This document shows positions 7,056 to 59,832 of a DNA stretch of 64,000 bases, in pieces; within the stretch, counting starts at the first letter, position 1; each line of letters opens with the position of its first letter. Source of the stretch: Methylomonas rivi. GTDB taxonomy: Bacteria; Pseudomonadota; Gammaproteobacteria; Methylococcales; Methylomonadaceae. Both the position numbers and the translations under genes were made by a program. The stretch is from contig NZ_JANIBK010000004.1 of assembly GCF_024505165.1 (NCBI RefSeq), positions 1 to 64,000 on the forward strand, written 5' to 3'. Below the pieces are notes generated by a model. That model made no database searches, was not told the DNA's origin, and saw only the letters and a program-made list of their open reading frames with translations.

Positions 7056-7255
7056 GGGCGTCCTCGTTAGTGAATGGATAAAACCGGCCCCAGCGGGCTT
7101 GCGGTGGTCGATAGCTTATGCGTTGCCCATCCGCCTGTAAGCCGATATTCGCCCGGAAACCCCGGGCAATATGCCCGCGATTGCCGCGCCGGCTGTTAAG
7201 TTGGGCCGGCAACTCTTACAATGCGGCATCATCCGATGCGACACACAGGCAACCC

Positions 7256-8614
7256 ATGAATCTACAATTGCATTTGTTGAGCAGGATCGCGGCCATTGCC
7301 TTGGCATGCTTGCTGGCGATCTCGGCTTACGCCCTGTTTAAAAGCCACCGGCAGGCTATGCAAGCCGCTTGGCGAATCGCCGATTCGCAAGGCAAACTGC
7401 TGGAGTCGCAGCTATTGCTGAACAAGGCCGGCATCGGTCTGGCCAGACCCTTCCCGGATTTCGAGTTTTGGAAACAGTCCGGCAGCCAACCGGGCGTTTG
7501 TCTGAGCTATGCCGATGCCGGCGGCCCGATGGCGCGCAGCCTTTGTACCGGAACAAAACCGGGCGCGGCGGACTGGCCCGAATTCTTCGATAGCGGCTAC
7601 CGTTGGACTTTCAATCCCGGCCAGCCGGCCGTGAGGCCCATTGAATTGCAAGGCCGGATCCACGGATCGCTGACGGTTACCCCCAGCGCCGAACTGGAAA
7701 TTGCCGAAGCCTGGCATACTGCGCTGAGCTTGACGGCTTTGTCTTGCGTCACTCTTTTTGCTGTGTGCATGCTGGTTTATCTGAGTCTACGCCGCGCCTT
7801 AAACCCGGCAAAAACCATCGTTCAAGGCATTGCAGCCATGGAAGCGGGCCGGCTGGATTTCCGTTTGCCCGCCTTCGAATTGAACGAATGGCAACGTATC
7901 GCGGCGGCCATTAACCAACTGGCGGCCAGCCAGCAGCAATTACTGGACGAACGCCGGAAACTGGTCGCGAAGTTAATCACGCTGCAGGAAGCGGAGCGCC
8001 GCCACTTGACCCGGGAACTGCACGATGAATTCGGCCAATGCTTGGCGGCCATTCAGGCGGTAACCGCTTCCATCCGGCAAACGGCCGCGCGGCAATGCCC
8101 GCAATTGCTGGAGGAAACGGACCGTATCGGCCGGATTACCGCGCACATGATGGATAGCGTGCGCCAACTTCTGGGCCGACTGCGGCCGGCCGAGTTCGAC
8201 GAATTGGGCTTGGCCGCCAGTCTCGGCAGCCTGATTGCCGGCTGGAATGGGCGCAGCCAAGGCAAAACCCGTTTTCAGTTGCATATCAGCGGTGATTGCG
8301 GTGTATTGTCGGACGCCCAAGCCATCGGCCTGTTCAGAATTACCCAAGAATGTTTGACCAATATCGCCAAGCATGCCGAAGCATCCGCAGCCCGGATCGA
8401 CTTAACCATCCGCGCCGATACCGCCGGTTTGCGCATCCGGGACGACGGCAAGGCTAACCGGTTGCCGTTTGCCGATAGCGGCGGCATCGGTTTGTCCGGC
8501 ATGCGCGAACGCGTGGCGGCCCTGCACGGGCAACTCGAGTTGGCGATAGCCGAGCCTCGGGGCTTGATCGTTGCCATACAACTGCCCCTCGGCGTTACCG
8601 GCATGCGGGCATGA
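7256..8614 (+). CDS. NarL-type sensor histidine kinase (HAMP, HisKA_3, HATPase)
   Basis: The ATG at 7256 gives 452 residues and puts a membrane helix right at the N-terminus. An in-frame ATG at 7118 would add an Arg/Pro-rich leader with no signal character. TM1 is at 11-28, a periplasmic sensor region at 29-155, TM2 at 156-178, HAMP at 179-231, and HisKA_3 at about 245-310 with the phosphoacceptor His256 in ELHDEFGQ. The HATPase domain has an N-box (ECLTNIAKHAEAS) and GIGLSGMRERV. Cys82 and Cys97 lie in the sensor region. The stop overlaps the regulator start as ATGA. It faces a cupin/DUF operon divergently. MxaY, a kinase of the lanthanide methanol-dehydrogenase switch in Methylomicrobium, is a possible relative but unproven. 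Confidence 0.88.
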   Translation: MNLQLHLLSRIAAIALACLLAISAYALFKSHRQAMQAAWRIADSQGKLLESQLLLNKAGIGLARPFPDFEFWKQSGSQPGVCLSYADAGGPMARSLCTGTKPGAADWPEFFDSGYRWTFNPGQPAVRPIELQGRIHGSLTVTPSAELEIAEAWHTALSLTALSCVTLFAVCMLVYLSLRRALNPAKTIVQGIAAMEAGRLDFRLPAFELNEWQRIAAAINQLAASQQQLLDERRKLVAKLITLQEAERRHLTRELHDEFGQCLAAIQAVTASIRQTAARQCPQLLEETDRIGRITAHMMDSVRQLLGRLRPAEFDELGLAASLGSLIAGWNGRSQGKTRFQLHISGDCGVLSDAQAIGLFRITQECLTNIAKHAEASAARIDLTIRADTAGLRIRDDGKANRLPFADSGGIGLSGMRERVAALHGQLELAIAEPRGLIVAIQLPLGVTGMRA

Positions 8615-22852: not shown

Positions 22853-25800
22853 TCAAATTTCCCAAAACGAATTGTCCTCAAAATAGAATAACTCGGGATC
22901 CGCCCTTGGCTGAACGATCAATTCAGCTAACGGCATGGGTTTATGAATAAAATACCCTTGCCCGTAATCGACCCCGACTTCCCTAAGAATATCTTTTATT
23001 TCAGCCGATTCGACATATTCCGCAATCGTCTTTAAATTTAATGAATGGGCGATCTCGTTCATGGATTTAACGATGGCTAAATCGGCTTTATTATCGGCGA
23101 GGTCTTTTACAAATGCGCCATCGATTTTCAGATAATCGACATTCAAATTCTTTAAATAAGCATAAGAAGAGTAGCCAGAACCGAAATCGTCCAAGGAAAA
23201 CTTGCATCCGAACGCTTTAATGGTTTTGATAAACTTTTTGGTAAATGCCAAGTTTTCGGATGCAACCGTCTCGGTTATTTCGAACACTAATTTCTCAAGC
23301 GGGAAATCGGAAACCTTTAAAATCGCTTGGAGAAACTGTAAAAACTCTTCACTATTTAGAGATTCGCCCGACAGGTTAATGGAAAATCCGTCCATATTGT
23401 CAAAGCTATGCCTGCTTTTTTCAATCCAGTCGAACACGGTGGAAATTACCCATTTATCGATTTCATGCATCCTTTTACAACGTTCGACAGCCGGTATGAA
23501 ATGGTCAGGCGGAATAATTTTGCCATCCTCATCTCTTATGCCAAGTAAAATTTCATAATGTACATGGCTATCCTGACTCGGCTCAATCGGAGCAATCATC
23601 TGGCAACGGGCAAATAATCTATCCTCGGAAAAAACGGTATCGATTCGTCCTATCCACTCAAGCAATTTATTTTGATATTGTAAACTCTCGTTATCGCCCG
23701 CAAACAGCAGCACATTATTGCTGCCGGAATGTTCGGCGGACAAACTCGCGGCATCGGCTTGTTGCAGCAATTGATAAATATCGATGCAGTTATTTTCAAA
23801 TGCGGCTAATCCCATGCTTAGCGTGATCGGAAAGCTTTTTTCCTGCCATTTAAAATGCGAATTACTAACTGATTTTATTAACTGATTCGACAAATCAAAA
23901 GCTTCATCAGTCAAACAATTTTTATATAAAACCGCAAAAGAGCTGTCGCCCAGTCTAGCCATTAAGTCGGACGACCTAAGCTGGTCCGACATTAGTTGAG
24001 TGACGGATTTTAACATTTGCGTACCGCCGGAGAGACCGCAAATATTTTTAATTACACGAAAATCCAACACCTCGATGTGGCAAAGCATGTGCTGAGTATC
24101 GCCGAGCTTTGGAAGTTCATTTTTTAATTGCTTAATAAACTCATCGCGCGTTATCAGATTTGTCTCCGGATCATGTGTAGCATTAAAGACAAATTTGTCA
24201 TGCATATCCTGTAGCATGGAATTGGTGGTTCTTTCCGTTAAAGGCGTATCCAAATTGTCCGATATTTCCGCGCAGCCATGGCGAAAAAGCGCTACTAACT
24301 CTTTTTTATTAAACTGAAGGCTTTTTAAGCCCTCGGTATCCACAAATACATAAACAAGAGGAATACCCCCGACCCATATTAATTTCATAGCCAAAAACAA
24401 ACCGGAGTCCTGCTTTATTTTTAACCATTCGCCGACGGCCAACTGATCTATCAATAACGTCCAATACTCATCGGTTTCGTCCGACAACTGGATGACATCC
24501 GGTTTTTGTTCGGCAATTTTAATGGTTTGAATGGTTTTTCTAACCCTAGGATTGCCAACGCCTAACAACAATGCGGTCAATTCTTCAATCACTTGCCTGC
24601 GTTCAAAAACAGGTGTGCCGGTTGAGCTCAGTTGGTCTTCAATAAAGGTAATGGTTGTTTGAATACTGCTGGTTTGAATTTTCAGAACCGAATCTTGCTC
24701 ATAAAGCCAAAACATCAGGTCATCGATAACATTCAAATATGCCGATTTTCTATCGTTTAATTTTTCTTTATTCAGCTCGGTAAAAACCAGCAAATGTTGC
24801 CAGCCGGCATCCAGCAGCATTGGAATTACCGTCGGTATCGCCCGTCCCCCGATGCGTTTGTCGATTTCTTCTTGAATCGCCTGGCGCGCCATTGCCAGTT
24901 TTTGCTGCCCTTCATGAATATCGACGACATGTTTAATTCTGGCGTCAATGGTTTTGGTGATCTGCTTTGTGAAACTATTTAACTCATTTTCGATTTCTAA
25001 TAATACATTCGGATTGGCCGGCACTTCCCTGGCAATCCGGGCGGTAATATGATGTAAAAATTGTTTGATACTGTCTTTTTTGGCGGTTCTGTTGCCTTGC
25101 ATGGCCTGATCCAGAACAGCGAGTTGATTAAGTATGGTTTTGGCGGGATGGGAATCGGCTTCTAAAAACTCGTTACCTTGTAACGGCAAACCGATTAAGG
25201 GCAGAAATATAGTTTCCAAATAAGGCTGTAACGCTGTGGAAATATTAGGATCTTTGAATAAAGTATTAAAAAAATTTCCGTACACGTCCAAAAGGCTGCC
25301 ATCGCGATGAGAAAATACCTTGGGTTTATCGGTAAGGTTTTTTAAGGTTTCTTGCAGACGCTCTTGCAGTTGCGCATAATCTTGGCGGATGAATTTGGCC
25401 GCGGCGTCGTTCTGTAATTGAGAAATAGCCGCCGTAATTTCATTTTCGTCAAAATAATCAACCGGCCTATCGATCAGTCCTGCATTATCTTGCGACTCGG
25501 ACTTGGAAAACCCGGCATTCGGTAAATCGGCTTCCTTTAAAATATCAAGCAATTTTCCGGCAATATGCGTTAATGAAGGGGCGGCATGGTTTTGCCCGCT
25601 TTCCGCCGCGCCGCTATCCCGCGAGAATGGGGGTTTTTGCGCGCCGTGTAAAACGTCTTGGCTACCGGGGGCGGCCGCAATCGAATCCCGCCGATATTCG
25701 ACTGCCGCATCAATAGTCTTTTTCTCGGCCGATTTTCGAGCCTCTAAAACAGCAACAGTTTGCCGGTAGAAATCGGGCAATAATTCGAACAACGTTTTAC

Positions 25801-26701
25801 CGAAACAAATGTAAAGCACTTTGTTGGTTTTATTGTCCAGTTTGAAGTGTAGAATAATTTCCCTGAAGCAATCGCAAAGTACCGCCGGACAAATCGGGTT
25901 GTTGATAGTCGTTTTGGAACGCCCCAATATTCTACTCAACTCGCGGGTCACTTGGTTAATCGGCTCTTCGAAATGATTGCTCAGCTTTCTTATGATTGCC
26001 GACATATTCAACCAATCTTCAAAATCCTCTTTTTCGACCAATGAAAGAGGTCTGTCGAAATGCGTAATGTCTTCTTTTTTTTGATTATGTTCGCTAATCC
26101 AATCGACCTGGTCGATAACGGAATGGCAAAATTCGCTGGTACAGATCCCGATATTTAATTTTAAAGTCGTCACTAAATCGTCTAATTCGGAACGGCTGGA
26201 AAAGTAATCTGAATGCGTATTGGCCTTTTCCAGGTTATTGCCGATTTCTTCAAAAAAGTGAGTCGCTAATTTAGCTAAAGACTCAACCAGGCTTTGTTTC
26301 AAAAACAGTTTAAAGTTTTCATACATCAACGGCCTGTCGCCGCTCTCCGCATCCGAGGTGTTGCTTATAGCTTGAGTTGCCTGTGTCTTTAGCGCATTAA
26401 AGGCCGCAAGCGGCATGTTATCGACCATAACCCCGACACCGTTAGGGGAGCTATGCATCAATTGCGCATCGATTTCGAACGATTGCCCGCCCCGTTCGGC
26501 GGGAACGTTGAACTGGATTTTGAGTTGTGTGGGCAAGGCAATATCGATATTGGCGGCAAGCCGCAAAAACAAGCCGTGCGAGCAAAAATCCAGAATCAGG
26601 CAATCGAAACGCCCCGCTTCGCCCGCTTTGAGTACAGCTTGCAGTTCTGTCGCGTATCGAATATGTCTGCGCTGTTTGGGTTTTTTGCTATTGATTAGCA
26701 T
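22853..26701 (-). CDS. PilZ-DUF1631-GGDEF-EAL giant signalling protein
   Basis: 1282 residues without membrane helices. Residues 10-105 look like a PilZ c-di-GMP-binding domain (QRRHIRYATELQAVL, DFCSHGLFLRL). The long helical DUF1631 region spans about 150-830. A GGDEF-type domain (about 860-1010) has the degenerate core RLGDSSF, so cyclase activity is unlikely. The EAL domain (about 1030-1270) has YEILLGI in place of EAL but keeps the Glu, ITETV, LDDFGSGYSS, LKIDGAF and IAEYVES; phosphodiesterase activity is plausible. The protein would bind c-di-GMP through PilZ and perhaps degrade it. It stands alone, convergent with moeA. The internal order matches a known DUF1631 architecture in gammaproteobacteria; its role is not established. 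Confidence 0.85.
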   Translation of the reverse strand: MLINSKKPKQRRHIRYATELQAVLKAGEAGRFDCLILDFCSHGLFLRLAANIDIALPTQLKIQFNVPAERGGQSFEIDAQLMHSSPNGVGVMVDNMPLAAFNALKTQATQAISNTSDAESGDRPLMYENFKLFLKQSLVESLAKLATHFFEEIGNNLEKANTHSDYFSSRSELDDLVTTLKLNIGICTSEFCHSVIDQVDWISEHNQKKEDITHFDRPLSLVEKEDFEDWLNMSAIIRKLSNHFEEPINQVTRELSRILGRSKTTINNPICPAVLCDCFREIILHFKLDNKTNKVLYICFGKTLFELLPDFYRQTVAVLEARKSAEKKTIDAAVEYRRDSIAAAPGSQDVLHGAQKPPFSRDSGAAESGQNHAAPSLTHIAGKLLDILKEADLPNAGFSKSESQDNAGLIDRPVDYFDENEITAAISQLQNDAAAKFIRQDYAQLQERLQETLKNLTDKPKVFSHRDGSLLDVYGNFFNTLFKDPNISTALQPYLETIFLPLIGLPLQGNEFLEADSHPAKTILNQLAVLDQAMQGNRTAKKDSIKQFLHHITARIAREVPANPNVLLEIENELNSFTKQITKTIDARIKHVVDIHEGQQKLAMARQAIQEEIDKRIGGRAIPTVIPMLLDAGWQHLLVFTELNKEKLNDRKSAYLNVIDDLMFWLYEQDSVLKIQTSSIQTTITFIEDQLSSTGTPVFERRQVIEELTALLLGVGNPRVRKTIQTIKIAEQKPDVIQLSDETDEYWTLLIDQLAVGEWLKIKQDSGLFLAMKLIWVGGIPLVYVFVDTEGLKSLQFNKKELVALFRHGCAEISDNLDTPLTERTTNSMLQDMHDKFVFNATHDPETNLITRDEFIKQLKNELPKLGDTQHMLCHIEVLDFRVIKNICGLSGGTQMLKSVTQLMSDQLRSSDLMARLGDSSFAVLYKNCLTDEAFDLSNQLIKSVSNSHFKWQEKSFPITLSMGLAAFENNCIDIYQLLQQADAASLSAEHSGSNNVLLFAGDNESLQYQNKLLEWIGRIDTVFSEDRLFARCQMIAPIEPSQDSHVHYEILLGIRDEDGKIIPPDHFIPAVERCKRMHEIDKWVISTVFDWIEKSRHSFDNMDGFSINLSGESLNSEEFLQFLQAILKVSDFPLEKLVFEITETVASENLAFTKKFIKTIKAFGCKFSLDDFGSGYSSYAYLKNLNVDYLKIDGAFVKDLADNKADLAIVKSMNEIAHSLNLKTIAEYVESAEIKDILREVGVDYGQGYFIHKPMPLAELIVQPRADPELFYFEDNSFWEI

Positions 26702-50930: not shown

Positions 50931-52202
50931 ATGAATAATGACTTAAAACGAAACGGGACCGTGCAAAGCGGATGCGCAAGAGACTGGCGCTTTTCGCCGC
51001 GATTCCCTACGGTTACGGTTTCGTCCTTGGTATTTATTGCCGCGGCTTTGAGTGGACGGTTTGTCGCGGCGCAGACTTTTAATGACGCCAGCACCGCCGA
51101 GCTCGATCGTATCTGCCGGCAAGATTCCGCTTTCAATTCTACAGACCAACTTGGCGGTATTTGTTCGGCCTTGCAAGCGGGAGGCGTACCGGCCGCATCC
51201 GGCATAGGCAGCCAGTCTCAGCCCAGTTCGCTGCTTATTTCCCAACAACAATTAAAAGACATACAAACCCAAAAGGAAAAGAAAAAAAGGCCGCGGGCAT
51301 CGGCCGACGTCATTGCCGCGCAATGGAATAAATTCAGTACCTTTTTAACCGCCGGGGCCACCACGCTGCGCCATTATCAAAATCCCTTCGAGGACGGCTA
51401 CAACGCTACCATTCCCGCGGTAACTCTCGGGGGCGGTTATTCCATTTTGAATAATCTGGATGTGGGGCTGGCGTTCAATTACGCCAACACAAACGGGACC
51501 TATCATTCCGGCGGCGGATTCGACAGCAACGCATACACCCCGCTGTTGTATGTCAATTATCTGCCTTTCGATAACGCCTTCGTCAATCTGGCCCTCAGTT
51601 ACACCCGGCGGAACCAAACCATAGACCGGTTCGCCGTTGCCGGAACGGACGGTTTTACCGGTAACACTACCGTCATTTCCAGGCTGACCAGCGGGAATTT
51701 CAACGCCAACCAATACAGTCTCAACTTTTTAAGCGGCTACGATTTCGCAATAAACAATATTACGTTCGGCCCCCGGGTCGGCGTCGACGTGCGGCAATGG
51801 GAAATCGACAGTTACCGCGAATCGTCAAACACCGGCCTGGAGTTGCGTTACAACGCTCAACATCAAACCTCGCTGCAGACCAACCTGGGCTTGTTCGCCT
51901 CTTCCGCCCATAGTTTTTCCTTTGGGGTTTTAGTGCCGCAAATCAACGTAGCCTGGGTACACGAACATGCCAACGATTCGCGCACCATTAACGCCCATTT
52001 CATTCAGGCCACCGATTCCACGACCGGCCCCGGCTTTGTCTTTCAAACCGAAAATCCGGCCCGCGACTGGGCCCTGATCGATATCGGGGCATCGTTACTT
52101 ATGGAGAAAGGCATTCAAGCGTTTGCCAACTTTACAACGGTACAAGGCAACAGCAACTTTGAAAGCTATGGCGGCAATGTGGGCGTAAGAATGGAGTGGT
52201 AA
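50931..52202 (+). CDS. Autotransporter-type outer-membrane beta-barrel protein
   Basis: 423 residues. A long leader with hydrophobic stretch VSSLVFIAAALSGRFVAAQ (signal peptide cleaved near residue 48) precedes a short passenger-like segment (about 50-125, ending in a Lys-rich KEKKKRPR). The rest (about 140-423) is an autotransporter beta-barrel domain with alternating aromatic residues and terminal NVGVRMEW. The passenger is so short that it probably serves as a porin-like or surface-exposed barrel and not as a secreted effector. Two cysteines (about 63 and 78) lie in the passenger. No function can be assigned. Confidence 0.75.
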   Translation: MNNDLKRNGTVQSGCARDWRFSPRFPTVTVSSLVFIAAALSGRFVAAQTFNDASTAELDRICRQDSAFNSTDQLGGICSALQAGGVPAASGIGSQSQPSSLLISQQQLKDIQTQKEKKKRPRASADVIAAQWNKFSTFLTAGATTLRHYQNPFEDGYNATIPAVTLGGGYSILNNLDVGLAFNYANTNGTYHSGGGFDSNAYTPLLYVNYLPFDNAFVNLALSYTRRNQTIDRFAVAGTDGFTGNTTVISRLTSGNFNANQYSLNFLSGYDFAINNITFGPRVGVDVRQWEIDSYRESSNTGLELRYNAQHQTSLQTNLGLFASSAHSFSFGVLVPQINVAWVHEHANDSRTINAHFIQATDSTTGPGFVFQTENPARDWALIDIGASLLMEKGIQAFANFTTVQGNSNFESYGGNVGVRMEW

Positions 52203-52257: not shown

Positions 52258-53064
52258 TTATTCGGCCGCATCGGCCAAAATGCTTGTCCACAGCCGTTCC
52301 CAGCAACAGGCATGATCGAAATTTTCGATTACGGTCAAGCGGGAGCCCAACCGCCGCGCCGCGTTCGCCATCAATACCGGCGGCACGACATCATCTTCGG
52401 CGCCGGCAAAATGATACTGCCGAATCGATGGGGCAAGCGGCGCCAGCGCGGCCGGATTTAATGACCCTTTCAGATCGTCGCTAGCCGTATAAACCGCCCA
52501 GGCTTCCAGGTCCAGGTTGGCGGCAACGGTCACCACGGCAACCGTTTCAGCTAAACGCGAGGCAAGCAGCACGGCAAGCGCCCCGCCGCCGCTATGCCCA
52601 AACAAGGCGATATTTCGGTAATTCCGCTGCCGAAGCAATTGCTTGATCGCTGCCGACAAACTGGCCACCACCGCCTCGCCATAGCGATGGCTTAACCAAA
52701 AACGGTTCGGGCAGGCTCCCATAGACTGCATGCCGTGGTAGCAAGGCCGGCCCAGATAAACGGCGGGGGCCGGATCTAACTTCATCAGTCTTAACATCAT
52801 GGGATTGCGGGGTGTCGGGTCGTCGGCCGGGCGGCCGGCAATCCAGGGCGTGCCGTCGCCGTCGATATAAACATGCAAGGTGTTCGCTGAATTTCCCGGC
52901 TTGCTGTAAACCACGTGTTGAAAGCCGGAACCGTCGACAATCTCGCGCCGCAAATGCAGCAAATCGGCTTGGCGGGCAAATTCTTCCGCGGCGCGGGTAC
53001 AGCCTCCTCCCAGGATTGCCCCCATGGCAACGATGGCCATGCATTTGATCGATAAGCCTTTCAT
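52258..53064 (-). CDS. Exported alpha/beta hydrolase
   Basis: 268 residues from the ATG at 53064, which is preceded by AGGTGA; the longer TTG form at 53091 has no advantage. The N-terminal hydrophobic stretch ends GAILGGGC, close to but not a perfect lipobox, so the protein is secreted or a lipoprotein. The nucleophile elbow GHSGGG (about residues 158-163), an acid in FAGAEDDVVPP and the His in ENFDHACCW complete a plausible triad. Substrate unknown. It starts 51 bp after the nSTAND/WD40 gene on the same strand and could belong to that operon. Confidence 0.78.
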   Translation of the reverse strand: MKGLSIKCMAIVAMGAILGGGCTRAAEEFARQADLLHLRREIVDGSGFQHVVYSKPGNSANTLHVYIDGDGTPWIAGRPADDPTPRNPMMLRLMKLDPAPAVYLGRPCYHGMQSMGACPNRFWLSHRYGEAVVASLSAAIKQLLRQRNYRNIALFGHSGGGALAVLLASRLAETVAVVTVAANLDLEAWAVYTASDDLKGSLNPAALAPLAPSIRQYHFAGAEDDVVPPVLMANAARRLGSRLTVIENFDHACCWERLWTSILADAAE

Positions 53065-53115
53065 CGCGTCACCTGATTCAACCGCAATCAAACCATTTCA
53101 TGCCGGCGGCCCGAT

Positions 53116-56100
53116 TTAGGGCGCCGCCGGAAGGGCATCGGCAGTCCGCCAGGCGGCGCAGGTCCGCCGAGGCAAGCTTCCCCCCAAATAGTCTTGCCAT
53201 TCGTCGGGGCTTAAATTGCGTCCCGCCTTTCGGCAGAGCGCATCGAAGGCCATTTGCGGATCGGCGGCATGTAAGCGGACGCGCCCGTCGCTAAGCGCCG
53301 ACGCCAGCAGCGGCGGGTCGTCCAGGCTGAATGCCACGCCCCAGACTTCTGCGCCATGACCGATCCGGTCTATTTCAAGGCCGCTGGCGGTTTCGATGAT
53401 TCTGCTTATCCCATCGGCGCCGGCAGTAGCCAAAAAATCCCCCTTGGCGCTGAAGGCGATACTTCTTGCTTCGCCGCCGTGTTTAATCAAAGAAACCAAC
53501 TTGCCGGTAGCGAGCTCGATCAATCTGACGGCATTGTCCATGCTGCCTGTTGCCAACAGTTTGCCATCCGGACTGAAAGCCACGTTAAGCACGCTGCCGG
53601 CGTGGACGAATTCGGCCGTTTCCCTGCCGGTGCGCCAGTCGAATAATCTTGCCCGCTTGTCTTCGCCGGCTATTGCCAGAACCCGATTGTCCCGGCTAAA
53701 GGCCAACTGCGTGACCGGCGCGGAAAATTTTAGGGTTTGCACGGGTTGCCAGGCCTGGGTATCGAGTAAAGATACCGTGCCATTCTTGCCGGCAATGGCC
53801 AATAGCTGCCCATCGAAACTAAACGCCACAAACCTGGTTTCGTCGGCATGATCAATTTTGTTTGTCACTTTGCCGCTGGCCGTATCCATTACCAGTACGG
53901 TTTTATCCAGGCTGGCAGTGGCCAGCCAGCGGCCATCGGGACTGAAAGCGATCCCCCTCACCTCTCCCGAATGCCGAACCGAGGCGATTTCCCGGCCGGC
54001 GGCCATATCGATCAATTTGGCGGTATTGTCCTTGCTGGCGGTAGCCAGCCAGCGCCCGTCCCGACTAAATGCAACGGCATAAACGCTATCATGGTGCCGG
54101 AACGCCATCAGTTGCCGGCCTGTCGCCACATCGTAGACGGTTGCGGTTTTATCCTGGCTGGCCGCCGCCAACAAACCGCCGCGCGGATAGAAGGCCACCC
54201 CCATAATGCTGTCCGTCCGCCGGATACGGATATCGTCCGGATATTTTCCGGTTTCGAACAGGCGTAGCTGCCGGTCCATGCCGACGGTTGCCAGCGTGCG
54301 GCTATCCGGGCTGAAGACGACATTCCATACCGCCCCACCGTGCATCAATCCGGCTATCTCCCGCCAGGATGCCGTTTCGAGGAGGCGGACACTGCCGTCC
54401 AGGCCGGCAATCGCCAGCAAGTGCGAATCCGGGCTGAACCTGACGCTATAAACATCGTCCGCGCCGCTAAACCGCGCGGCTTCCATACCGCCGGCCACTT
54501 CGGTTATTTTGGCCGTATTGTCGTCGCTGCCCGTCGCCAGCCAGCGGCCGTCCGCGCTAAAGGCCAAACTCGCCACCGCTTCGTTGTGTTTGATGCGGGT
54601 TAATGCCTTACCGGTTTCGGCATCGATAATGCTGGCCAGATTATCCAGGCTGGCCGTAGCCAATAAACGGCCATCGGCGTTAAACGCAATGTGGGTCACC
54701 CCGGCGCCGTGCTTGAGCCGCAACAATTCCTTGCCGGAGGAGATTTCGATCAGTCTGGCGGTTTTATCCCGGCTGGCACTGGCAAGGCTGCGGCCGCCAG
54801 GGCTAAAGGCGATATTCGACACTTCGCCGCCATGGCGAAACCGCCACAATTCCCGGCCGGCCGACACATCGATCAGGCGCGCCGTACCGTCTTTGCCGGC
54901 CGCCGCCAAAAACCGGCCGTCCGGACTGAAACCGACTGCATTGACTTCGCCGTCCAGGCTAAGCCGAAACACGGTCCGCCGGTTTACCGCGTCTATTATC
55001 CTGACTTGGCGGTCGCTGCAACCGGTGGCCATAAAGCGTCCATCGGGACTGAAAGCGATGCTGTTGATCCAACCGTCATGCGCCATGGAAAAAATCTCCT
55101 CGCCGGTTTGGCGGTTGAATACGCGCAATTGTCCGCCTTCGTCGCCGGTTGCCAGCAAGCCTCCGTCGGGGCCGATGCCGATCGCATAAATCGGCCGCTC
55201 ATGCCCTATGCGATAATTGGGCAACAAGCGCAACAGCGCATGGGCGGTGGCGGCGGCCTCCGCATTGGGTTGAATACGCCACGACTCGAGCGCCAGCGCC
55301 GCGGCCCGTTCCACAATACGGTCATCCGCCGCCGTATCGGCCAGCAAGGCCGCCTGGGCGGCGAGTTTACCGGATTGGGTGATATTGCGCGCTTGCTCGG
55401 CCGAAATACGCGACTGTTTGGCATCCCACCAGTTCCACCAGCCCCAAGCCGCGGTCAACAGAAAGACCGCCGCCAAACTGACGAAAACCATGGCCCAGCG
55501 CTTGGCCTGCCGCTCCCGCTGCTCGGCCTCGGCCCTGGCCTGTTCGTCCAGACGCTGTTTCTCCAACATTTGCCGTTGTTCCCGACTTTTACGCACCACG
55601 CCGGCCAATACATCGTGAATCAACTCTATCCGTTTGACGCCGCCCTGCTGCTCCTGGCGTAAAATCAATAGCCTTCCTTGCACCAGGGCATCCAGGGCAT
55701 CCCGGGTAATACCGGGGGTTTCCAGCGCATTATCGTAGGCTTCGCTGTTTCGGTAACCCGAGACGGTCAGCAGCCTGTCCTCGATGAACCGGCGTAATGC
55801 CGGCGCTTGATCGTGCAGGCAGCGCCGGTAGAACTGGTCCAGTATCGATTCCCGGCTGCTGTCGACCAGCCGCGCCTCTATCCGCTCGGCCCGGTTTTGG
55901 ATTCTGCGTTCGTTCAACTCCCGGCACAGCAGGCTCAACAAGGCCGGTTCGATGCGCAAATCCTCTAATTCGCTTAGCGCCTGTTCGCCTTGCTCGCCGG
56001 CCACCAACCGGACGATGCTTTCGGCTGTCTCCGCTGCGAGCAAGCGGCCGTGCGTCTGGTCGACCACCGCCAATGCCTGTTTTCCGTTCATGGGACGCAG

Positions 56101-56820
56101 CCGCATACGATTGTGCATGATCGAAGGCATCAACGGCCGCAGTTCTTCCAAATTGGCCAGATAGTCTTCGCGCAGGCTCAAAATCAGCTTGAAACGGTGG
56201 CGGCTAAAATCGAAATCTTCGGACAACTCCGGATTTTCATCCAAGCGCCTCTTCACGGTTTCGGGGCAACGGCCTTCAATCAGGTCCGCCAGCTCCGTAA
56301 TGAAGTTATCGGTAGCCCGCCGCCGGTTTGGGGTTTCGCGGCCCAAGGTAAAAATTTCCTCGAACTGGTCGAAACACAGCAGCGGCAGCGCGATACGGTT
56401 GCGGGCGTCCCAAAACTCGGACTGTTTGCGATGGAAATATTCCCATAAGGTTTCGCTCTCCATCCGCGCCGGCGCCTCTACCGCATGCGTATCGGCTTGC
56501 CGGTCCAGGGCCGCGTATACCTGCCGGCGTAGCGGTAACGCATCGTCCGCAAAATTCAGCCGGATAATGACGGGCAGCATGGGATCGAGGCGTAACAGCG
56601 GAAACAGCCCGGCCTGCAGTAACGAACTTTTACCCAAGCCGGAAACGCCGCACAGCACGGTAAGACGTTCGCGATTGACCAGCCGATGCAGTTTGGTTAT
56701 ATCCTGAGTCCGACCCTTGAAAAATTGCGCCTCTTGTTCTTTAAAAGCCGCCAGCCCCGGCCAGGGATGTTCCGCATCGACAAGGGCGTATTCTATTGCG
56801 GGGTCGGCGGACATTGGCAT
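53116..56820 (-). CDS. nSTAND NTPase with transmembrane helix and 16 WD40 repeats
   Basis: The ATG at 56820 is preceded by GGAG located in the end of the upstream gene, giving 1234 residues. The nSTAND1-type entry motif HPWPGLAAFKEQEAQFFKGR is at 18-37, Walker A GVSGLGKSS at 58-66, Walker B LLCFDQFEE at 147-155, and a winged-helix end ELIHDVLAGVV at about 399. A coiled coil (411-440), one membrane helix (442-460) and 16 WD40 repeats (about 537-1190, consensus VAFSPDGRWLATAS) follow. It ends in the CRKAGRNLSPDEW tail known from STAND-WD40 proteins. The WD40 part should sense a ligand and the NTPase should oligomerise. Downstream of the SIR2-TIR gene by 5 bp, it forms a likely defence or cell-suicide pair. 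Confidence 0.9.
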   Translation of the reverse strand: MPMSADPAIEYALVDAEHPWPGLAAFKEQEAQFFKGRTQDITKLHRLVNRERLTVLCGVSGLGKSSLLQAGLFPLLRLDPMLPVIIRLNFADDALPLRRQVYAALDRQADTHAVEAPARMESETLWEYFHRKQSEFWDARNRIALPLLCFDQFEEIFTLGRETPNRRRATDNFITELADLIEGRCPETVKRRLDENPELSEDFDFSRHRFKLILSLREDYLANLEELRPLMPSIMHNRMRLRPMNGKQALAVVDQTHGRLLAAETAESIVRLVAGEQGEQALSELEDLRIEPALLSLLCRELNERRIQNRAERIEARLVDSSRESILDQFYRRCLHDQAPALRRFIEDRLLTVSGYRNSEAYDNALETPGITRDALDALVQGRLLILRQEQQGGVKRIELIHDVLAGVVRKSREQRQMLEKQRLDEQARAEAEQRERQAKRWAMVFVSLAAVFLLTAAWGWWNWWDAKQSRISAEQARNITQSGKLAAQAALLADTAADDRIVERAAALALESWRIQPNAEAAATAHALLRLLPNYRIGHERPIYAIGIGPDGGLLATGDEGGQLRVFNRQTGEEIFSMAHDGWINSIAFSPDGRFMATGCSDRQVRIIDAVNRRTVFRLSLDGEVNAVGFSPDGRFLAAAGKDGTARLIDVSAGRELWRFRHGGEVSNIAFSPGGRSLASASRDKTARLIEISSGKELLRLKHGAGVTHIAFNADGRLLATASLDNLASIIDAETGKALTRIKHNEAVASLAFSADGRWLATGSDDNTAKITEVAGGMEAARFSGADDVYSVRFSPDSHLLAIAGLDGSVRLLETASWREIAGLMHGGAVWNVVFSPDSRTLATVGMDRQLRLFETGKYPDDIRIRRTDSIMGVAFYPRGGLLAAASQDKTATVYDVATGRQLMAFRHHDSVYAVAFSRDGRWLATASKDNTAKLIDMAAGREIASVRHSGEVRGIAFSPDGRWLATASLDKTVLVMDTASGKVTNKIDHADETRFVAFSFDGQLLAIAGKNGTVSLLDTQAWQPVQTLKFSAPVTQLAFSRDNRVLAIAGEDKRARLFDWRTGRETAEFVHAGSVLNVAFSPDGKLLATGSMDNAVRLIELATGKLVSLIKHGGEARSIAFSAKGDFLATAGADGISRIIETASGLEIDRIGHGAEVWGVAFSLDDPPLLASALSDGRVRLHAADPQMAFDALCRKAGRNLSPDEWQDYLGGSLPRRTCAAWRTADALPAAP

Positions 56821-56825
56821 GACGG

Positions 56826-58244
56826 TTACTCCGAATTGCGCCGGTAGGCCCGCTGCAGCTGCTTGAGCTCGGTTAAAAACGCCGCGCCGCATTGACCGTT
56901 TTGCAGCCGTTCCCAATGCAACTCGCGAATATACTCGTCCAAATTGGGATCGTCGGGCGGCGTGTCGTCTATGGCCAAAGGCATGATGAAGCGCCGGCTT
57001 TCCGGATAAAAATCCGCGCATTCTTGCGCGTACTTCCATTCGAACCTAAAGAAGCGCCGCTCCTGCGTCAAGGTATGGCGGGAAATGATAGGCACGAATA
57101 GCGCGCATTGTTCGATATTGGTTTTGATGCGGGCTTTAAAGTTGTCGCCAACCCGCAGGGCGTTCGTATTCCTATCGAACCAAACTTCAATACCGGCCGT
57201 TTCCAAAGCATGTTTAATGGCTATTACCGCTTCTTCATCTTCATGGGCGTAGCTCAGAAAAACGGCGCCGCCGCGCATTGGCTCCCTTGCATCCGGCTCG
57301 GCAACAAGTTCGACCGGTTCGGCTTTGTCAACGGGAAGGGCGCGGGCCGCCGTATCGAAATGCTCGCCATCGTCAACGCCGGCAGGATGCATTGCCGTCC
57401 AACGTTGATACAACTCGTTGACGAACTCGATGGATTGCATGGGGAAAATTTTGGTACGGCTACTGAAATGCAGCAGAAATTCGGCCAGGTTTATTTCCTT
57501 GCGGATTTGGTCGCCGACCAAAAAATCGGTTTTTTCCTTGGAAATAATCAAGCGGTGCCTGTTACCGAGACGCACGAAAAACCGCCCCAACCAATCGAAT
57601 AATTGGCAGCCGATAATCATCAGGCCCTGTCCGACTAACGCATCGAACAACAGTTTCGGGCGGGTATCCGCCGACTGCAGTGCGTGCATAAACTCTAAAA
57701 TGTCTTCATCGGTCACCGCGTAATCCGGCGCGGCGGTTAATTTGCCGAACAGATGAAATACCGTGGTGCCGGCCAAATATTCCATTTCCTCCGGCAAATC
57801 CTTGCCGGAACCGGGGTAGAACTCTAAAACCTGGGTGCTATCCTTACCCCGATACCGAACTTGGTTAAGCGTCCGGACCAGATAGGGATCGAAACAAGTG
57901 GTGACAAATAGTTTCAGCGGCCTGATTTCGGCAAGCTTCACCAGGGTTTCCGGCGGCTTAACCTGCGACAATTCGGCCAGCGCGCGTTTCAGCACGGGAT
58001 ACATGTCTTCCCGTTGCCCGCCCTGGGCGAGATAGCGGCAGGCGACAGTATTTAAGGTATCGTCCGCTTCGGACTTAATTCCCAGGCGTTTTGCCAGTTG
58101 CTCGGCCAAGTAGTCGTACAGCAGGGCCGGTTTGCCGTCGATGTCCAGCATCAGCAGCTCCGGCCCGATAACGGGTATCACCCGGCCTTCCTCTATGAAC
58201 GCCATCAGCTGTTCCCAAAGCCGCTCGATATTCGCCTCTATCAT
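56826..58244 (-). CDS. SIR2-like/TIR fusion protein
   Basis: 472 residues from the ATG at 58244, with AGGG at 7 bp. Residues 1-280 resemble SIR2: VIPVIGPEL at 22-30 (glycine loop), TTCFDP at 115-120, HLFGK at 164-168 and GLMIIGCQLFDWLGR at 207-221. In active SIR2 defence proteins the second motif has TTNF/Y and the third LHG; here Cys117 and Phe166 replace the catalytic Asn and His. Residues 326-470 are a TIR domain (VFLSYAHEDEEA, VWFDRNTNALRVGD) whose putative catalytic Glu402 is retained in FRFEWKYA. TIR domains cleave NAD+ or make signalling nucleotides. The next gene encodes the nSTAND/WD40 sensor. Confidence 0.87.
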   Translation of the reverse strand: MIEANIERLWEQLMAFIEEGRVIPVIGPELLMLDIDGKPALLYDYLAEQLAKRLGIKSEADDTLNTVACRYLAQGGQREDMYPVLKRALAELSQVKPPETLVKLAEIRPLKLFVTTCFDPYLVRTLNQVRYRGKDSTQVLEFYPGSGKDLPEEMEYLAGTTVFHLFGKLTAAPDYAVTDEDILEFMHALQSADTRPKLLFDALVGQGLMIIGCQLFDWLGRFFVRLGNRHRLIISKEKTDFLVGDQIRKEINLAEFLLHFSSRTKIFPMQSIEFVNELYQRWTAMHPAGVDDGEHFDTAARALPVDKAEPVELVAEPDAREPMRGGAVFLSYAHEDEEAVIAIKHALETAGIEVWFDRNTNALRVGDNFKARIKTNIEQCALFVPIISRHTLTQERRFFRFEWKYAQECADFYPESRRFIMPLAIDDTPPDDPNLDEYIRELHWERLQNGQCGAAFLTELKQLQRAYRRNSE

Positions 58245-58342: not shown

Positions 58343-58780
58343 CTATAGGCGTAACGGCGTTACCCGGCCGCTACGCAAAAACTCTCGATAATCGGCCAGC
58401 ACTTGGGCATGGTCGAAAGCCAGTTGGGCCGGCAAGTTGTCGAACGTGAACAATCCGGCGTTTTTGGCATCATCCGCGGCCAGCGGCAGTCCGTGTGCTT
58501 GCCCGACATAGACCGCCGTGACGGTATGATTGCGCGGATCGCGGGCGGGATCGGAATAAATCCCCAACAATGCCGTTAACTCGACATTCAGCCCGGTTTC
58601 TTCCCTGGCTTCGCGGATGGCGGCGCGCTCCACGGTTTCGCCGACATCGACGAAACCGCCCGGCACGGCCCAGCCGTAGGGAGGAAAGGCGCGTTCGATC
58701 AAGACGAAAGGCCGTTCCGGCACATCGATCAATTCAATCAAAATATCGGCGGCGAGCAACGGGGTAATAGGCTTGGCCAT
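58343..58780 (-). CDS. Nudix hydrolase, ADP-ribose pyrophosphatase-like
   Basis: 145 residues from the ATG at 58780, preceded by GAGG. The complete Nudix box [24 protein letters not shown] (only the core residues G-E-REETG are counted) follows [10 protein letters not shown]. This branch hydrolyses ADP-ribose, NADH or related nucleoside diphosphate compounds. It lies 98 bp upstream of the SIR2-TIR gene on the same strand and divergent from the deacetylase. A role in clearing TIR products is possible but unproven, and many unrelated genomes carry such a Nudix gene. Confidence 0.85.
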
Positions 58781-58887
58781 GTTGATCCTCTGTAGGGTTA
58801 GGAAAACCAAGTTTAGCGGTCGACTTGATTTTAAACCAGCCATGCCTCATAACACGCAATAGCTAGCGAATTTTTAGAGGGGGCCTT

Positions 58888-59832
58888 ATGACTATGCTCT
58901 ATTACAGCCACGCCGAGTTTCTGTCCCACGATACCGGTCCCGGCCACCCGGAAAGTCCCGACCGCTTGCGCGCCATAGAAACAGCAATGAACATACCCCG
59001 GTTTCAGGGCATACGCCGCGTCTCGCCGCCGCTGCCGGACGACATAGAAACCAAACTGGCCCTGATTCATACGCCGGCCATGATCGCGCGCGTATTGGCG
59101 GGCATTCCCGCCGAGGGATTAAGTTATTTCGACGCCGATACCGTGGCCTCGCCGGGTTCGAAAGCCGCCGCGCTACGCGCGGTAGGCGCGGTCTGCGACG
59201 CAGTGGATCAAATCTGCACGGACCGGGCCCAGCAAGCTTTCTGCGCCGTGCGCCCGCCCGGCCACCATGCCATGCCCGGTTATCCCATGGGATTCTGTCT
59301 GTTCAACAACATCGCCATTGCCGCGGAATATGCCCGTACCCGCTACGGCTTGGAACGTATCGCTATCGTGGATTTCGATGTGCACCACGGCAACGGCACG
59401 CAGGCGGCGTTTTATCAGCAACCGCAAGTGCTGTACGCCTCCAGCCACCAATGGCCGCATTATCCCGGCAGCGGCCATCCCTCCGAAAACGGGGTGGGCA
59501 ATATCATCAACGTTCCGCTGCCGACCGGCACCGACGGCAAAACATTTCGGGCCAAATACTCGGAAACCATTTTACCGGCCGTGCGCAAATTCAACCCGCA
59601 ACTCATTCTGATTTCCGCCGGATTCGATGCACATAAAGACGATCCGTTGGCTTCGTTGCGGCTGGTGGAAGACGATTATGCCTGGGTGACGCGGCAGTTG
59701 AGAGACATTGCCGATGCCGTTTGTAACGGACGCATTATTTCCGCGCTGGAGGGCGGCTACGATTTGCGGGCCTTGTCGGCCAGCGTCGCCGCGCACGTCG
59801 GCAGCCTGGCCGGATTGAATGGGGGCGATTGA
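58888..59832 (+). CDS. Histone deacetylase family protein (acetylpolyamine amidohydrolase-like)
   Basis: 314 residues. Zinc-binding and catalytic motifs are present: RPPGHHAMPGYPMGFCLFNN with the His-His dyad, VDFDVHHGNGTQ with two metal ligands, and SAGFDAHKDDPL with the third. The Tyr in EGGYDLRAL completes the class II-type active site. Bacterial members deacetylate acetylated polyamines, small molecules or proteins such as acetyl-CoA synthetase. An in-frame ATG at 58894 is an alternative start. The TGA stop is the loop of a perfect hairpin (59821-59841). The gene converges with cytochrome P460. Confidence 0.9.
   Translation: MTMLYYSHAEFLSHDTGPGHPESPDRLRAIETAMNIPRFQGIRRVSPPLPDDIETKLALIHTPAMIARVLAGIPAEGLSYFDADTVASPGSKAAALRAVGAVCDAVDQICTDRAQQAFCAVRPPGHHAMPGYPMGFCLFNNIAIAAEYARTRYGLERIAIVDFDVHHGNGTQAAFYQQPQVLYASSHQWPHYPGSGHPSENGVGNIINVPLPTGTDGKTFRAKYSETILPAVRKFNPQLILISAGFDAHKDDPLASLRLVEDDYAWVTRQLRDIADAVCNGRIISALEGGYDLRALSASVAAHVGSLAGLNGGD

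Follow-up and report, generated by a model that had tools for sequence, protein, structure and literature searches.

Does a pair of adjacent genes in Methylomonas rivi, one coding for a TIR domain attached to a SIR2-like domain and the other for a STAND NTPase with WD40 repeats, form a single NLR-like system, and if so, what is the part of the SIR2-like domain? The pair is located in a stretch of 64,000 nucleotides of contig NZ_JANIBK010000004.1 (hereafter, the window), and it was regarded in a preliminary description, made from that sequence, as a candidate antiphage or cell-suicide operon.

Organization of the two-gene locus

Both open reading frames lie on the minus strand, and thus the gene for the SIR2-like/TIR protein (58244–56826; P0002, 472 aa) is the first of the pair. 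It is followed, after an intergenic gap of 5 bp, by the STAND gene (56820–53116, minus strand), the 1,234-aa product of which (P0001) combines, based on Pfam matches and hydropathy, an nSTAND1 NTPase, a membrane-like helix and WD40 repeats. The probable ribosome-binding site of the STAND gene, GGAG, is found at positions 56829–56832 of the same strand, within the last codons of the SIR2-TIR gene. The open frames and the sequence thus agree with the preliminary description, in which a single-strand operon with a 5 bp gap and a ribosome-binding site inside the end of the first gene had been claimed. A promoter scan revealed none upstream of the pair on its strand. The genes that flank the pair in the window are ordinary, the next ones coding for a hydrolase and an autotransporter. 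PADLOC and NCBIfam have a whole-length model for neither P0001 nor P0002, and the same was observed with PADLOC for 51 relatives of P0002.

Conservation and co-divergence of the pair

A profile scan of named genomes revealed a STAND gene just downstream of the SIR2-TIR gene in 79 of 80 loci, these being the best 80 of 115 relatives. In 78 of them the pairing was found by script, and in L077 by inspection (STAND at 7102–8502); the unpaired 80th locus, L086, lies at a contig end, where the sequence stops 132 bp past the match. Genes up to 2.5 kb apart were counted as pairs, and the largest domain-to-domain distance was 803 bp in the 75 rows of the spacing and tree set, from which the loci that are not single-frame (L032, L080, L082, L086 and L087) were left out, while being kept in the 80 for pairing. 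The two genes overlap by 4 bp in 39 of the 69 loci (out of 75) in which spacing was measured. A reciprocal search showed SIR2-TIR upstream in 5/5 STAND relatives. The pairing was also seen in 14/14 copies among 201 genomes of the source's order, including one copy in which a 266-aa ORF separates the genes and another in which the STAND gene is interrupted, and in 4/4 copies among 398 genomes of its phylum. A homologous pair is found, e.g., in the cultured relative Methylobacter luteus (L030).

For comparison, 27 TIR proteins lacking this SIR2-like domain were used as controls. Five of them with less than 1.5 kb of downstream sequence were not counted, and none of the other 22, with at least 1.5 kb, has a STAND gene downstream. 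Since the pairing is found in 79/80 loci versus 0/22 TIR-only controls, it exceeds chance, and the ordered SIR2-TIR/STAND arrangement is close to obligatory. Co-conservation in other genomes, on which the preliminary description had staked its proposal beforehand, was therefore found in both directions. The SIR2-like domain marks those TIR proteins that are paired with STAND, and may serve as a marker for finding further copies. Separately, two of the 27 controls showed a weak P-loop-sized match (about 40–45 positions; E-values, 2 × 10−5 to 3 × 10−5) inside the TIR protein itself.

The SIR2-TIR and STAND distances correlate strongly (r = 0.913; 67 pairs, being 69 with near-copies removed), and none of 2000 permutations gave a value as high. 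Any co-inherited pair would give such a correlation, which is thus by itself no proof of contact between the proteins.

The SIR2-like/TIR protein

The AlphaFold2 model of P0002 (mean pLDDT, 88.5) comprises two domains. The TIR domain occupies residues about 326–471 (56832–57269, minus strand) and matches Pfam TIR_2 at residues 328–450 (E-value, 2.6 × 10−20; 73.6 bits versus a cut-off of 28). The nearest solved TIR structure is that of SPARTA (8ifl_A; Z 16.8, 2.3 Å, 133 aligned residues, 24% identity). The predicted catalytic glutamate, Glu402, is encoded at positions 57039–57041 (minus strand), and the residue is Glu in 51/51 family members. With both the TIR_2 score and the catalytic Glu in place, the protein is, as far as its sequence indicates, likely an NAD-cutting enzyme.

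The SIR2-like domain covers residues 1–286 (57387–58244, minus strand). The SIR2_2 score of P0002 is below the Pfam gathering cut-off (21.4 versus 24.5), which is passed by some relatives, e.g., by the L146 copy at 52.7. The predicted model has the sirtuin fold seen in antiphage proteins, with Z values of 17 to 20 to DSR2, SPARSA SIR2, KomC and Avs5; the figures are Z 19.9, 4.0 Å over 254 aligned residues for DSR2 (8wyc_C; VIA-align 2), and Z 19.5, 3.5 Å over 259 for SPARSA (8y80_E). The Asn of the TTNxD motif and the His of the HG motif, both present in catalytic SIR2_2 sirtuins, are absent from P0002, in which Cys117 and Phe166 are found at these sites, and neither residue is present in any of the 51 aligned relatives; the catalytic columns were set by 15 sirtuins from the genus, picked for the TTN motif (20 loci examined). 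Because the fold is kept while Asn and His are gone in 51/51 sequences, the domain is a conserved pseudoenzyme. Judging from the aligned residues, it is a catalytically dead pseudo-sirtuin in all of the relatives aligned, so that the degeneracy claimed earlier for one protein extends to the whole aligned family.

The STAND/WD40 protein

The nSTAND1 NTPase domain spans residues 19–431 (55528–56766, minus strand) and is recognized by Pfam PF20703 (E-value, 2.4 × 10−31; 110.2 bits versus 27.1). The conserved Walker A motif, GVSGLGKS, is encoded at positions 56626–56649 (minus strand), and Lys64 of Walker A, as well as Asp151, Glu154 and Glu155 of Walker B, are present in 69/69 paired STAND sequences. 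Glu402 and Walker A, the two sites named in the preliminary description, were thus both located, and both are conserved. A PDB sequence search with the NTPase part gave no match. There is no effector fused N-terminally to the STAND protein of the window; the nSTAND1 match begins at residue 19, which leaves little room for an N-terminal adaptor.

A putative membrane helix is located at residues 442–460 (55441–55497, minus strand; Kyte-Doolittle value, 1.94 over 19 residues), a region in which the predicted STAND model is weak. A similar hydropathy peak, above 1.6, was found in 62 of 68 STAND relatives, and the membrane helix claimed at the outset is thus a usual, membrane-like feature of these proteins. 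Based on hydropathy, the STAND protein is probably membrane-anchored.

The 16 WD40 repeats (53257–55224, minus strand), a candidate sensor, recur with a period of 41 residues; together with the Pfam matches, this period supports the earlier claim of 16 repeats on an nSTAND NTPase. Blades are seen in the model from about residue 533 to 1188, and its residues 532–858 fit the designed eight-bladed propeller Tako8 (6y7n_A) at 1.7 Å over 311 residues. WD40 propellers filled the matches in the fold search with the STAND model. The region probably forms two eight-bladed propellers, the second half being deduced from the repeat count.

The sensor half varies among relatives, in which WD40, TPR, FGE-like and unknown types are found; the Nitrosomonas relative (L029), for example, has a TPR sensor. 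On a tree of 55 STAND proteins with C-termini of at least 350 aa, parsimony requires the WD40/non-WD40 label to switch at least eight times, and at least four switches are forced by well-supported branches; a protein was labeled WD40 if it had at least one repeat at E 0.01 with a model built from the window repeats, so that divergent propellers may count as non-WD40. The proposed WD40 sensor stands as a candidate for the window protein, but the family has other sensor types as well. The relatives thus offer a natural series in which the sensor differs while the effector core stays constant, which may be useful for learning what bacterial STAND proteins target.

Proposed mechanism

We regard it as moderately probable that the pair is a two-gene NLR-like conflict system (immune or cell-suicide), with a STAND sensor that assembles the pseudo-sirtuin-TIR NADase provided in trans. 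The STAND protein would be held at the membrane by its single helix, and its exchangeable C-terminal repeat domain, formed here by the 16 WD40 repeats, would read the trigger, most likely a phage, which would give the pair an antiphage function. Trigger binding would then lead to nucleotide exchange and oligomerization via the nSTAND1 NTPase. The effector would be the TIR NADase carried on the dead sirtuin domain, encoded by the gene just upstream and not fused to STAND. The pseudo-sirtuin may act as the coupling piece: by binding to the STAND oligomer, or by being ordered through it, it would bring the TIR domains together in an active arrangement. The presumed last step is NAD+ cleavage, upon which growth would stop or the cell would die.

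A different role of the pseudo-sirtuin is conceivable, i.e., that of a ligand sensor with a preserved nucleotide pocket for NAD+ or for a nucleotide made by the phage or the TIR domain. Binding would gate the TIR domain and give the system two inputs, a protein trigger via STAND and a nucleotide via the SIR2-like domain. Despite the loss of Asn and His, 51/51 relatives retain Gly27, Asp119, Gly167 and Gly212 at positions that correspond to motif residues of live sirtuins, as expected of a binding-only pocket; however, these residues may simply maintain the fold. Trp218, Arg221 and Arg225, invariants specific to this family, lie on a single model helix (217–226) that could equally be a docking surface. 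This explanation, which overlaps with in-trans assembly by STAND and differs from it in the role of the pseudo-sirtuin, appears unlikely, yet deserves serious weight.

It is also possible, albeit rather improbable, that the TIR protein makes a signal, as in Thoeris, by converting NAD+ into a cyclic ADP-ribose isomer, and that killing is due to a separate effector encoded elsewhere and not to bulk NAD+ loss. Many bacterial TIR proteins make such signals (cf. PMC10022894), and the TIR glutamate is intact here. In addition, a third gene found in some variants could code for a downstream effector: a patatin-like phospholipase with TPR-S, based on Pfam, in L018, and genes recognized by order and size only in L019 and L020. 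On the other hand, the window locus has no third gene, the PADLOC matches of the window pair include no ThsA-like partner, and the nearest TIR chains by both profile and fold are those of SPARTA, the TIR of which depletes NAD+ directly.

Distribution and genomic context

The pair is spread over seven bacterial phyla, is patchy within the genus (4/37 genomes), and reaches up to three copies per genome. A single-protein contig scan with P0002 gave 22 pattern matches, none of them a relative, while an alignment-based scan did find relatives. No SIR2-TIR relative was detected in 50,697 phage records, and none of the 36 pattern matches in IMG/VR is a relative; among plasmids, 2 of 72,556 records match, one over the full length. 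Two species of the genus share the site of the pair. When neighbors were compared with PADLOC on a small scale, no enrichment in defence islands was seen: 74 flank proteins match 8 models versus 58 for 127 control proteins, with one 1,734-aa control ORF left out before the counts. Six proteins from the variable site beside the HDAC gene, taken from three of five genus genomes, are not defence-like. These are histidine kinases and a GGDEF-EAL protein (L140), a PEP-utilising enzyme (L144), and an ArsA ATPase with an SBF transporter (L142).

Such a context may suggest a stress or programmed-death switch that responds to an internal cue and is not antiviral, in line with the lack of enrichment in the small test, the absence from phage records, the rarity on plasmids, and the site shared by two species. 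We nevertheless consider this quite improbable, as patchiness, multiple copies, spread over seven phyla and sensor change are the pattern of conflict systems and not of a core stress response. That the two genes are neighbors by chance, or a loose operon whose products act separately, is hardly credible. Nothing in its favor was found, and gene order, to the extent that it can decide the matter, speaks against it through the pairing (79/80 among the best 80 of 115 relatives, 14/14 and 5/5) and the 4-bp overlap in 39/69 loci. The preliminary interpretation was partly supported: co-conservation of the pair and the degenerate SIR2 domain were upheld, and the active sites of TIR and STAND are conserved, whereas defence-island enrichment was not supported in the small test.

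Comparison with known systems

Similar to the pair, Avs5 couples a sirtuin-fold NADase-type domain to a STAND NTPase, with NAD+ hydrolysis as the output of Avs5, and its SIR2 (9jap_A) shares the fold of the SIR2-like model (Z 17.2, 4.4 Å, 258 aligned residues). Avs5 is, however, one protein with a live SIR2, for which PMC12931631 reports a TTNxD motif with a required Asn110; the pair has a dead SIR2-like domain, a likely live TIR and a separate STAND gene, and is thus not Avs5. The sirtuins of ThsA and Avs5 work as filaments (PMC12700824).

Thoeris likewise has TIR and SIR2 folds within one two-gene locus. ThsA (7uxt_B) is the top Foldseek match of the whole SIR2-TIR model (E-value, 2.5 × 10−11). 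For ThsA 8bto_A, 380 residues align with Z 19.9; the fit of 17 Å, however, indicates a different placement of the two domains in ThsA and SIR2-TIR. In Thoeris (cf. PMC11204291), TIR and SIR2 are separate proteins, of which SIR2 acts as the live effector, and STAND is not a component, whereas here TIR and a dead SIR2-like domain are fused, with STAND alongside. PADLOC models of ThsB cover only part of the TIR domain and those of ThsA match neither P0001 nor P0002, which argues against Thoeris; among the 51 relatives, 4 and 3 members are matched by one or the other of two ThsA models (best E-value, 4.9 × 10−7).

SPARTA and SPARSA, in which a short Argonaute goes with TIR-APAZ or SIR2-APAZ, also have two genes, with the sensor in one and the NADase in the other (cf. 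PMC10474274), and SPARSA 8y80_E is among the nearest SIR2 structures. Their sensor is an Argonaute, whereas in the pair this place is taken by a STAND NTPase whose repeats are exchangeable; the partner is nSTAND1 and not a short pAgo in 79/80 loci (best 80 of 115 relatives), and SPARTA-type PADLOC models match only the TIR part of P0002. Swarozyc resembles the pair in having a TIR-like NADase and an auxiliary sensor domain, but the system tested in PMC13174449 consists of a DUF4062 protein that itself carries the auxiliary domain, and DUF4062 is absent from the Pfam matches of P0002 and from the 25 listed of 58 for P0001.

The same division of labor is found among the STAND conflict systems with adaptor domains predicted by Kaur, Burroughs, Aravind et al., which include nSTAND1, varied sensors and effectors in trans; one pair predicted in PMC8195603 consists of a bDLD3-TIR protein next to a bDLD3-STAND-FGS protein. 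There, a death-like adaptor is present on both proteins, whereas the window STAND apparently lacks an N-terminal adaptor, and the conserved extra module, the pseudo-sirtuin, is confined to the TIR protein. The SIR2-TIR/STAND layout does not occur in those text passages on predicted STAND adaptor systems, nor was a description of this architecture found in the full text of open-licence PMC papers, the literature covered. Within this literature and the family searches, the earlier statement that the arrangement is unnamed among characterized systems held, with the reservation that a TIR protein apart from STAND, with another adaptor, had been predicted before (PMC8195603).

With Apaf-1 the pair shares a STAND ATPase and, probably, a double WD40 propeller, and with plant TIR-NLRs (TNLs) a STAND receptor with TIR output; it differs from both in the separate effector gene, the membrane-like helix, nSTAND1 instead of NB-ARC, and the pseudo-sirtuin link. 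To our knowledge, an immune pseudo-sirtuin acts as an adaptor in no described system. We tentatively propose, with a confidence just short of even, an undescribed multi-phylum family of split NLRs, in which a dead sirtuin couples a STAND sensor to an in-trans TIR NADase and sensors are freely exchanged. NLR-type receptors normally hold sensor and killer in one chain, whereas this pair splits them over two genes, and its killer carries a sirtuin that has kept the fold and lost the chemistry in every aligned relative. The pair thus lends itself well to testing the use of a pseudoenzyme as an immune adaptor.

Organization and domain composition of the gene pair

The pair consists of two open reading frames on the minus strand, the first of which (58244–56826) encodes a SIR2-like/TIR protein of 472 aa (P0002), and the second (56820–53116) an nSTAND1/WD40 protein of 1,234 aa (P0001). 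As the preliminary description had it, 5 bp separate the first gene's stop from the second gene's start, and GGAG (56832–56829), the probable ribosome-binding site of the second gene, lies within the final codons of the first. Pfam analysis identified a TIR_2 domain (E-value, 2.6e-20) and a SIR2_2 match slightly below the cut-off in P0002, and an nSTAND1 domain (E-value, 2.4e-31) followed by WD40 repeats in P0001. The NTPase of P0001 begins at residue 19 according to Pfam; thus, no effector-like part is fused to the sensor. P0001 has a helix at residues 442–460 (hydropathy, 1.94) and 16 WD40 repeats with a period of 41 residues. The WD40 region is likely to form two eight-bladed propellers, because in addition to the repeat number, the P0001 model (residues 1–1200) has blades spanning roughly residues 533–1188, and its residues 532–858 match designed eight-bladed propellers at 1.7 Å. 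Elsewhere in the window, a 1,282-aa protein with PilZ, DUF1631, GGDEF and EAL domains (22853–26701, minus strand) has no relation to the pair.

Conservation of the pair

The SIR2-TIR and STAND genes are one unit, and the operon proposed in the preliminary description recurs as an ordered pair. Among the 201 genomes of the order searched, P0002 had 12 matches in 10 genomes, while the SIR2-like domain alone, a more sensitive query, gave 14 strong matches (E-values ≤ 4.2e-46) in the same 10 genomes, the next-best match (5.6e-17) falling on shorter frames. A TIR domain and a STAND gene adjoin the SIR2-like domain on the same strand in 14/14 of these copies, one of which carries a 266-aa ORF separating the two genes and another an interrupted STAND gene. 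In a phylum sample of 398 genomes, all four matches, including the window, were paired. Among the named loci (best 80 of 115 relatives), 79, with L077 entered by reading of its locus, have a STAND domain no more than about 0.8 kb downstream in the same orientation, and the 80th has 132 bp of contig remaining downstream. A reciprocal search of 101 genomes with the NTPase part returned five matches, each (5/5) with a SIR2-TIR gene upstream.

In 58 of the 69 pairs, a STAND start codon was located −8 to +30 bp relative to the stop of SIR2-TIR, and in 39 of the 69 the two genes overlap by 4 bp. The distances between SIR2-TIR proteins are correlated with those between their STAND partners (r = 0.913 for 67 pairs; maximum of 2000 permutations, 0.14), which is the expectation under co-inheritance and is alone no proof of contact. 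In five loci, mostly from Verrucomicrobia (L036, L042, L043, L047 and L048), 218–787 bp separate the SIR2-TIR stop from the detected STAND start; such a gap could accommodate a small additional gene or a break in the frame.

Twenty-seven proteins matching the TIR part alone served as a control, and a STAND gene was found downstream of none of the 22 whose downstream sequence reaches 1.5 kb or more (0/22). Thus, it is the SIR2-like domain, rather than the TIR, that accompanies the STAND partner.

The SIR2-like and TIR domains

Glu402 of the TIR domain is invariant across 51 aligned members, as are Phe329, Ser331, Tyr332, Trp355, Asp357 and Ser388. The sirtuin motif positions were set by alignment to 15 same-genus sirtuins, chosen from 20 loci for having TTN. 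Compared with the motifs of live sirtuins, P0002 has GPE for GAG, TTCFD for TTN[YF]D and LFG for LHG. The column of the catalytic Asn holds Thr (36), Ser (10), Cys (3), Gly (1) and Ala (1), and that of the catalytic His holds Phe (29), Leu (20), Tyr (1) and Met (1), so that the degeneracy of the SIR2 domain noted for the window extends to the whole set (Asn 0/51, His 0/51). In L146, a more distant copy, Ala at the Asn site and Tyr at the His site were read from the alignment by eye. Gly27, Asp119, Gly167 and Gly212 of the SIR2-like domain are invariant in the 51 members, and so are the family-specific Trp218, Arg221 and Arg225. By its residues, P0002 appears to be a dead sirtuin joined to a live-looking TIR. 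In Avs5, immunity requires the corresponding Asn (PMC12931631).

In the AlphaFold2 model of P0002 (mean pLDDT, 88.5), the first ~290 residues match DSR2 (Z 19.9; 4.0 Å over 254 residues), the SIR2 of SPARSA (Z 19.5; 3.5 Å, 259 residues), KomC (Z 19.3; 3.8 Å, 246 residues) and Avs5 (Z 17.2; 4.4 Å, 258 residues), and residues 325–465 match the TIR of SPARTA (Z 16.8; 2.3 Å, 133 residues, 24% identity). The top Foldseek match over the whole model is ThsA, in which the two domains are differently positioned (17 Å).

STAND core and sensor variety

Comparison of the STAND sequences indicates that the core is constant and the sensor part is exchanged. The NTPase motifs are intact (Lys64, Asp151, Glu154 and Glu155 in 69/69 paired sequences), and a membrane-like helix follows the NTPase in 62 of 68 relatives. 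Among the 55 C-termini of at least 350 aa, a model derived from the repeats of P0001 detects one or more WD40 repeats in 43 and none in 12; by Pfam, ten non-WD40 C-termini comprise six with clear TPRs, one with weak TPR, one with weak YEATS and two with no match. A Nitrosomonas relative (L029), with a SIR2-TIR protein ~60% identical, has TPRs in place of the window's WD40, and an FGE-sulfatase domain is present in one genus copy. The WD40/non-WD40 label is more clustered on the SIR2-TIR tree than shuffled labels and changes at least eight times, at least four of these changes being forced by well-supported branches.

Several individual loci depart from the common layout. In one copy of G116 (L146:4904–9751), a 362-aa ORF running in the opposite direction splits the STAND gene, and the FGE-sulfatase domain lies at the end of the C-terminal piece. 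In G602 (L145:4383–6395), a 670-aa ORF directly upstream of SIR2-TIR matches the WD40 part of P0001, as though a copy had arisen in tandem or the sensor had been rearranged. A third gene of 866–880 aa lies downstream of a short STAND gene in three loci (L018:11258–13897, L019:7149–9761 and L020:3113–5713); in L018, the only one of the three scanned, it encodes TPR-S and patatin-like phospholipase domains. Fungal NLRs undergo repeat exchange, and in a Thermoanaerobaculum STAND relative (L059), some WD40 repeats are up to 95% identical to one another, hinting at a similar recent exchange.

Distribution and genomic context

The named loci (best 80 of 115 relatives) come from seven phyla: Pseudomonadota, Acidobacteriota, Verrucomicrobiota, Planctomycetota, Gemmatimonadota and Actinomycetota, plus a Synechococcus. 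No relative was found in the phage and viral collections, and two records of the plasmid collection have relatives. Within the window's genus, seven copies are present in 4 of 37 genomes; a STAND gene adjoins six, and the seventh (G602) lies <30 bp from a contig end, its downstream side being outside the contig.

A conserved HDAC gene flanks the pair in G117 and in the genome of the window; at this site, the pair is absent from the five other genus genomes examined. A NUDIX gene (58343–58843) shares the minus strand with the pair and lies 98 bp upstream of it, followed by the divergent HDAC-family gene (58888–59832, plus strand). Both were rejected as parts of the system and considered local neighbours only, because HDAC is found in 28/37 genus genomes and NUDIX adjoins it in 4/5 examined loci without the pair. 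On the other side, an alpha/beta-hydrolase gene (52258–53091), likewise on the minus strand, starts 24 bp past the STAND stop, with an autotransporter gene (50931–52202, plus strand) beyond it. The hydrolase is likewise next to the STAND gene in L013, L014/L024 and L027 (partial, at a contig end), and in L013 and L014/L024 the autotransporter gene comes after it. The hydrolase may accompany this sub-branch of the pair, although genus genomes lacking the pair contain hydrolase paralogues (37–44% identity).

Enrichment near defence islands, raised in the preliminary description, was unsupported by a small PADLOC comparison (1e-15), in which 74 proteins flanking eleven copies at ten loci, drawn from seven genomes, matched 8 models and 127 control proteins encoded in randomly chosen stretches of these genomes matched 58, these figures being counts of models, not proteins, from a small sample where one control stretch may sit in an island. 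The flank matches were three phospholipase-effector models with two members each, DinG models and mad3; among the control matches listed (25) were Druantia and BREX helicase models.

Proposed mechanism

We infer trigger, oligomer, contact and product alike. By analogy with NLR-type receptors, the repeat domain would bind a trigger, leading to nucleotide exchange in the NTPase and oligomerisation. TIR activity is assembly-dependent in several systems, and here the TIR would ultimately cleave NAD+. The pseudo-sirtuin is a candidate coupling surface between STAND and TIR, since it resides on the effector and was not observed without a STAND gene where the downstream side is readable. Immune sirtuin-fold proteins often act by assembly, as in the filaments of ThsA, Avs5 and FAM118B (PMC12700824).

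Comparison with known systems

No model in PADLOC 2.0.0 (2023) or NCBIfam spans P0001 or P0002 whole, and no published description of the pair was found in the full text of open-licence PMC papers. Avs5, SPARTA and Thoeris resemble the pair in using NAD-cutting folds, but each has defining features that were checked for and are absent from the pair. The nearest precedent found is a predicted bDLD3-STAND-FGS protein adjoining a bDLD3-TIR protein (PMC8195603); therefore, a STAND sensor with a TIR in trans is already a known idea. We rate the pair as belonging among the NLR-like STAND systems, its unusual element being the conserved pseudo-sirtuin as a putative linking module.
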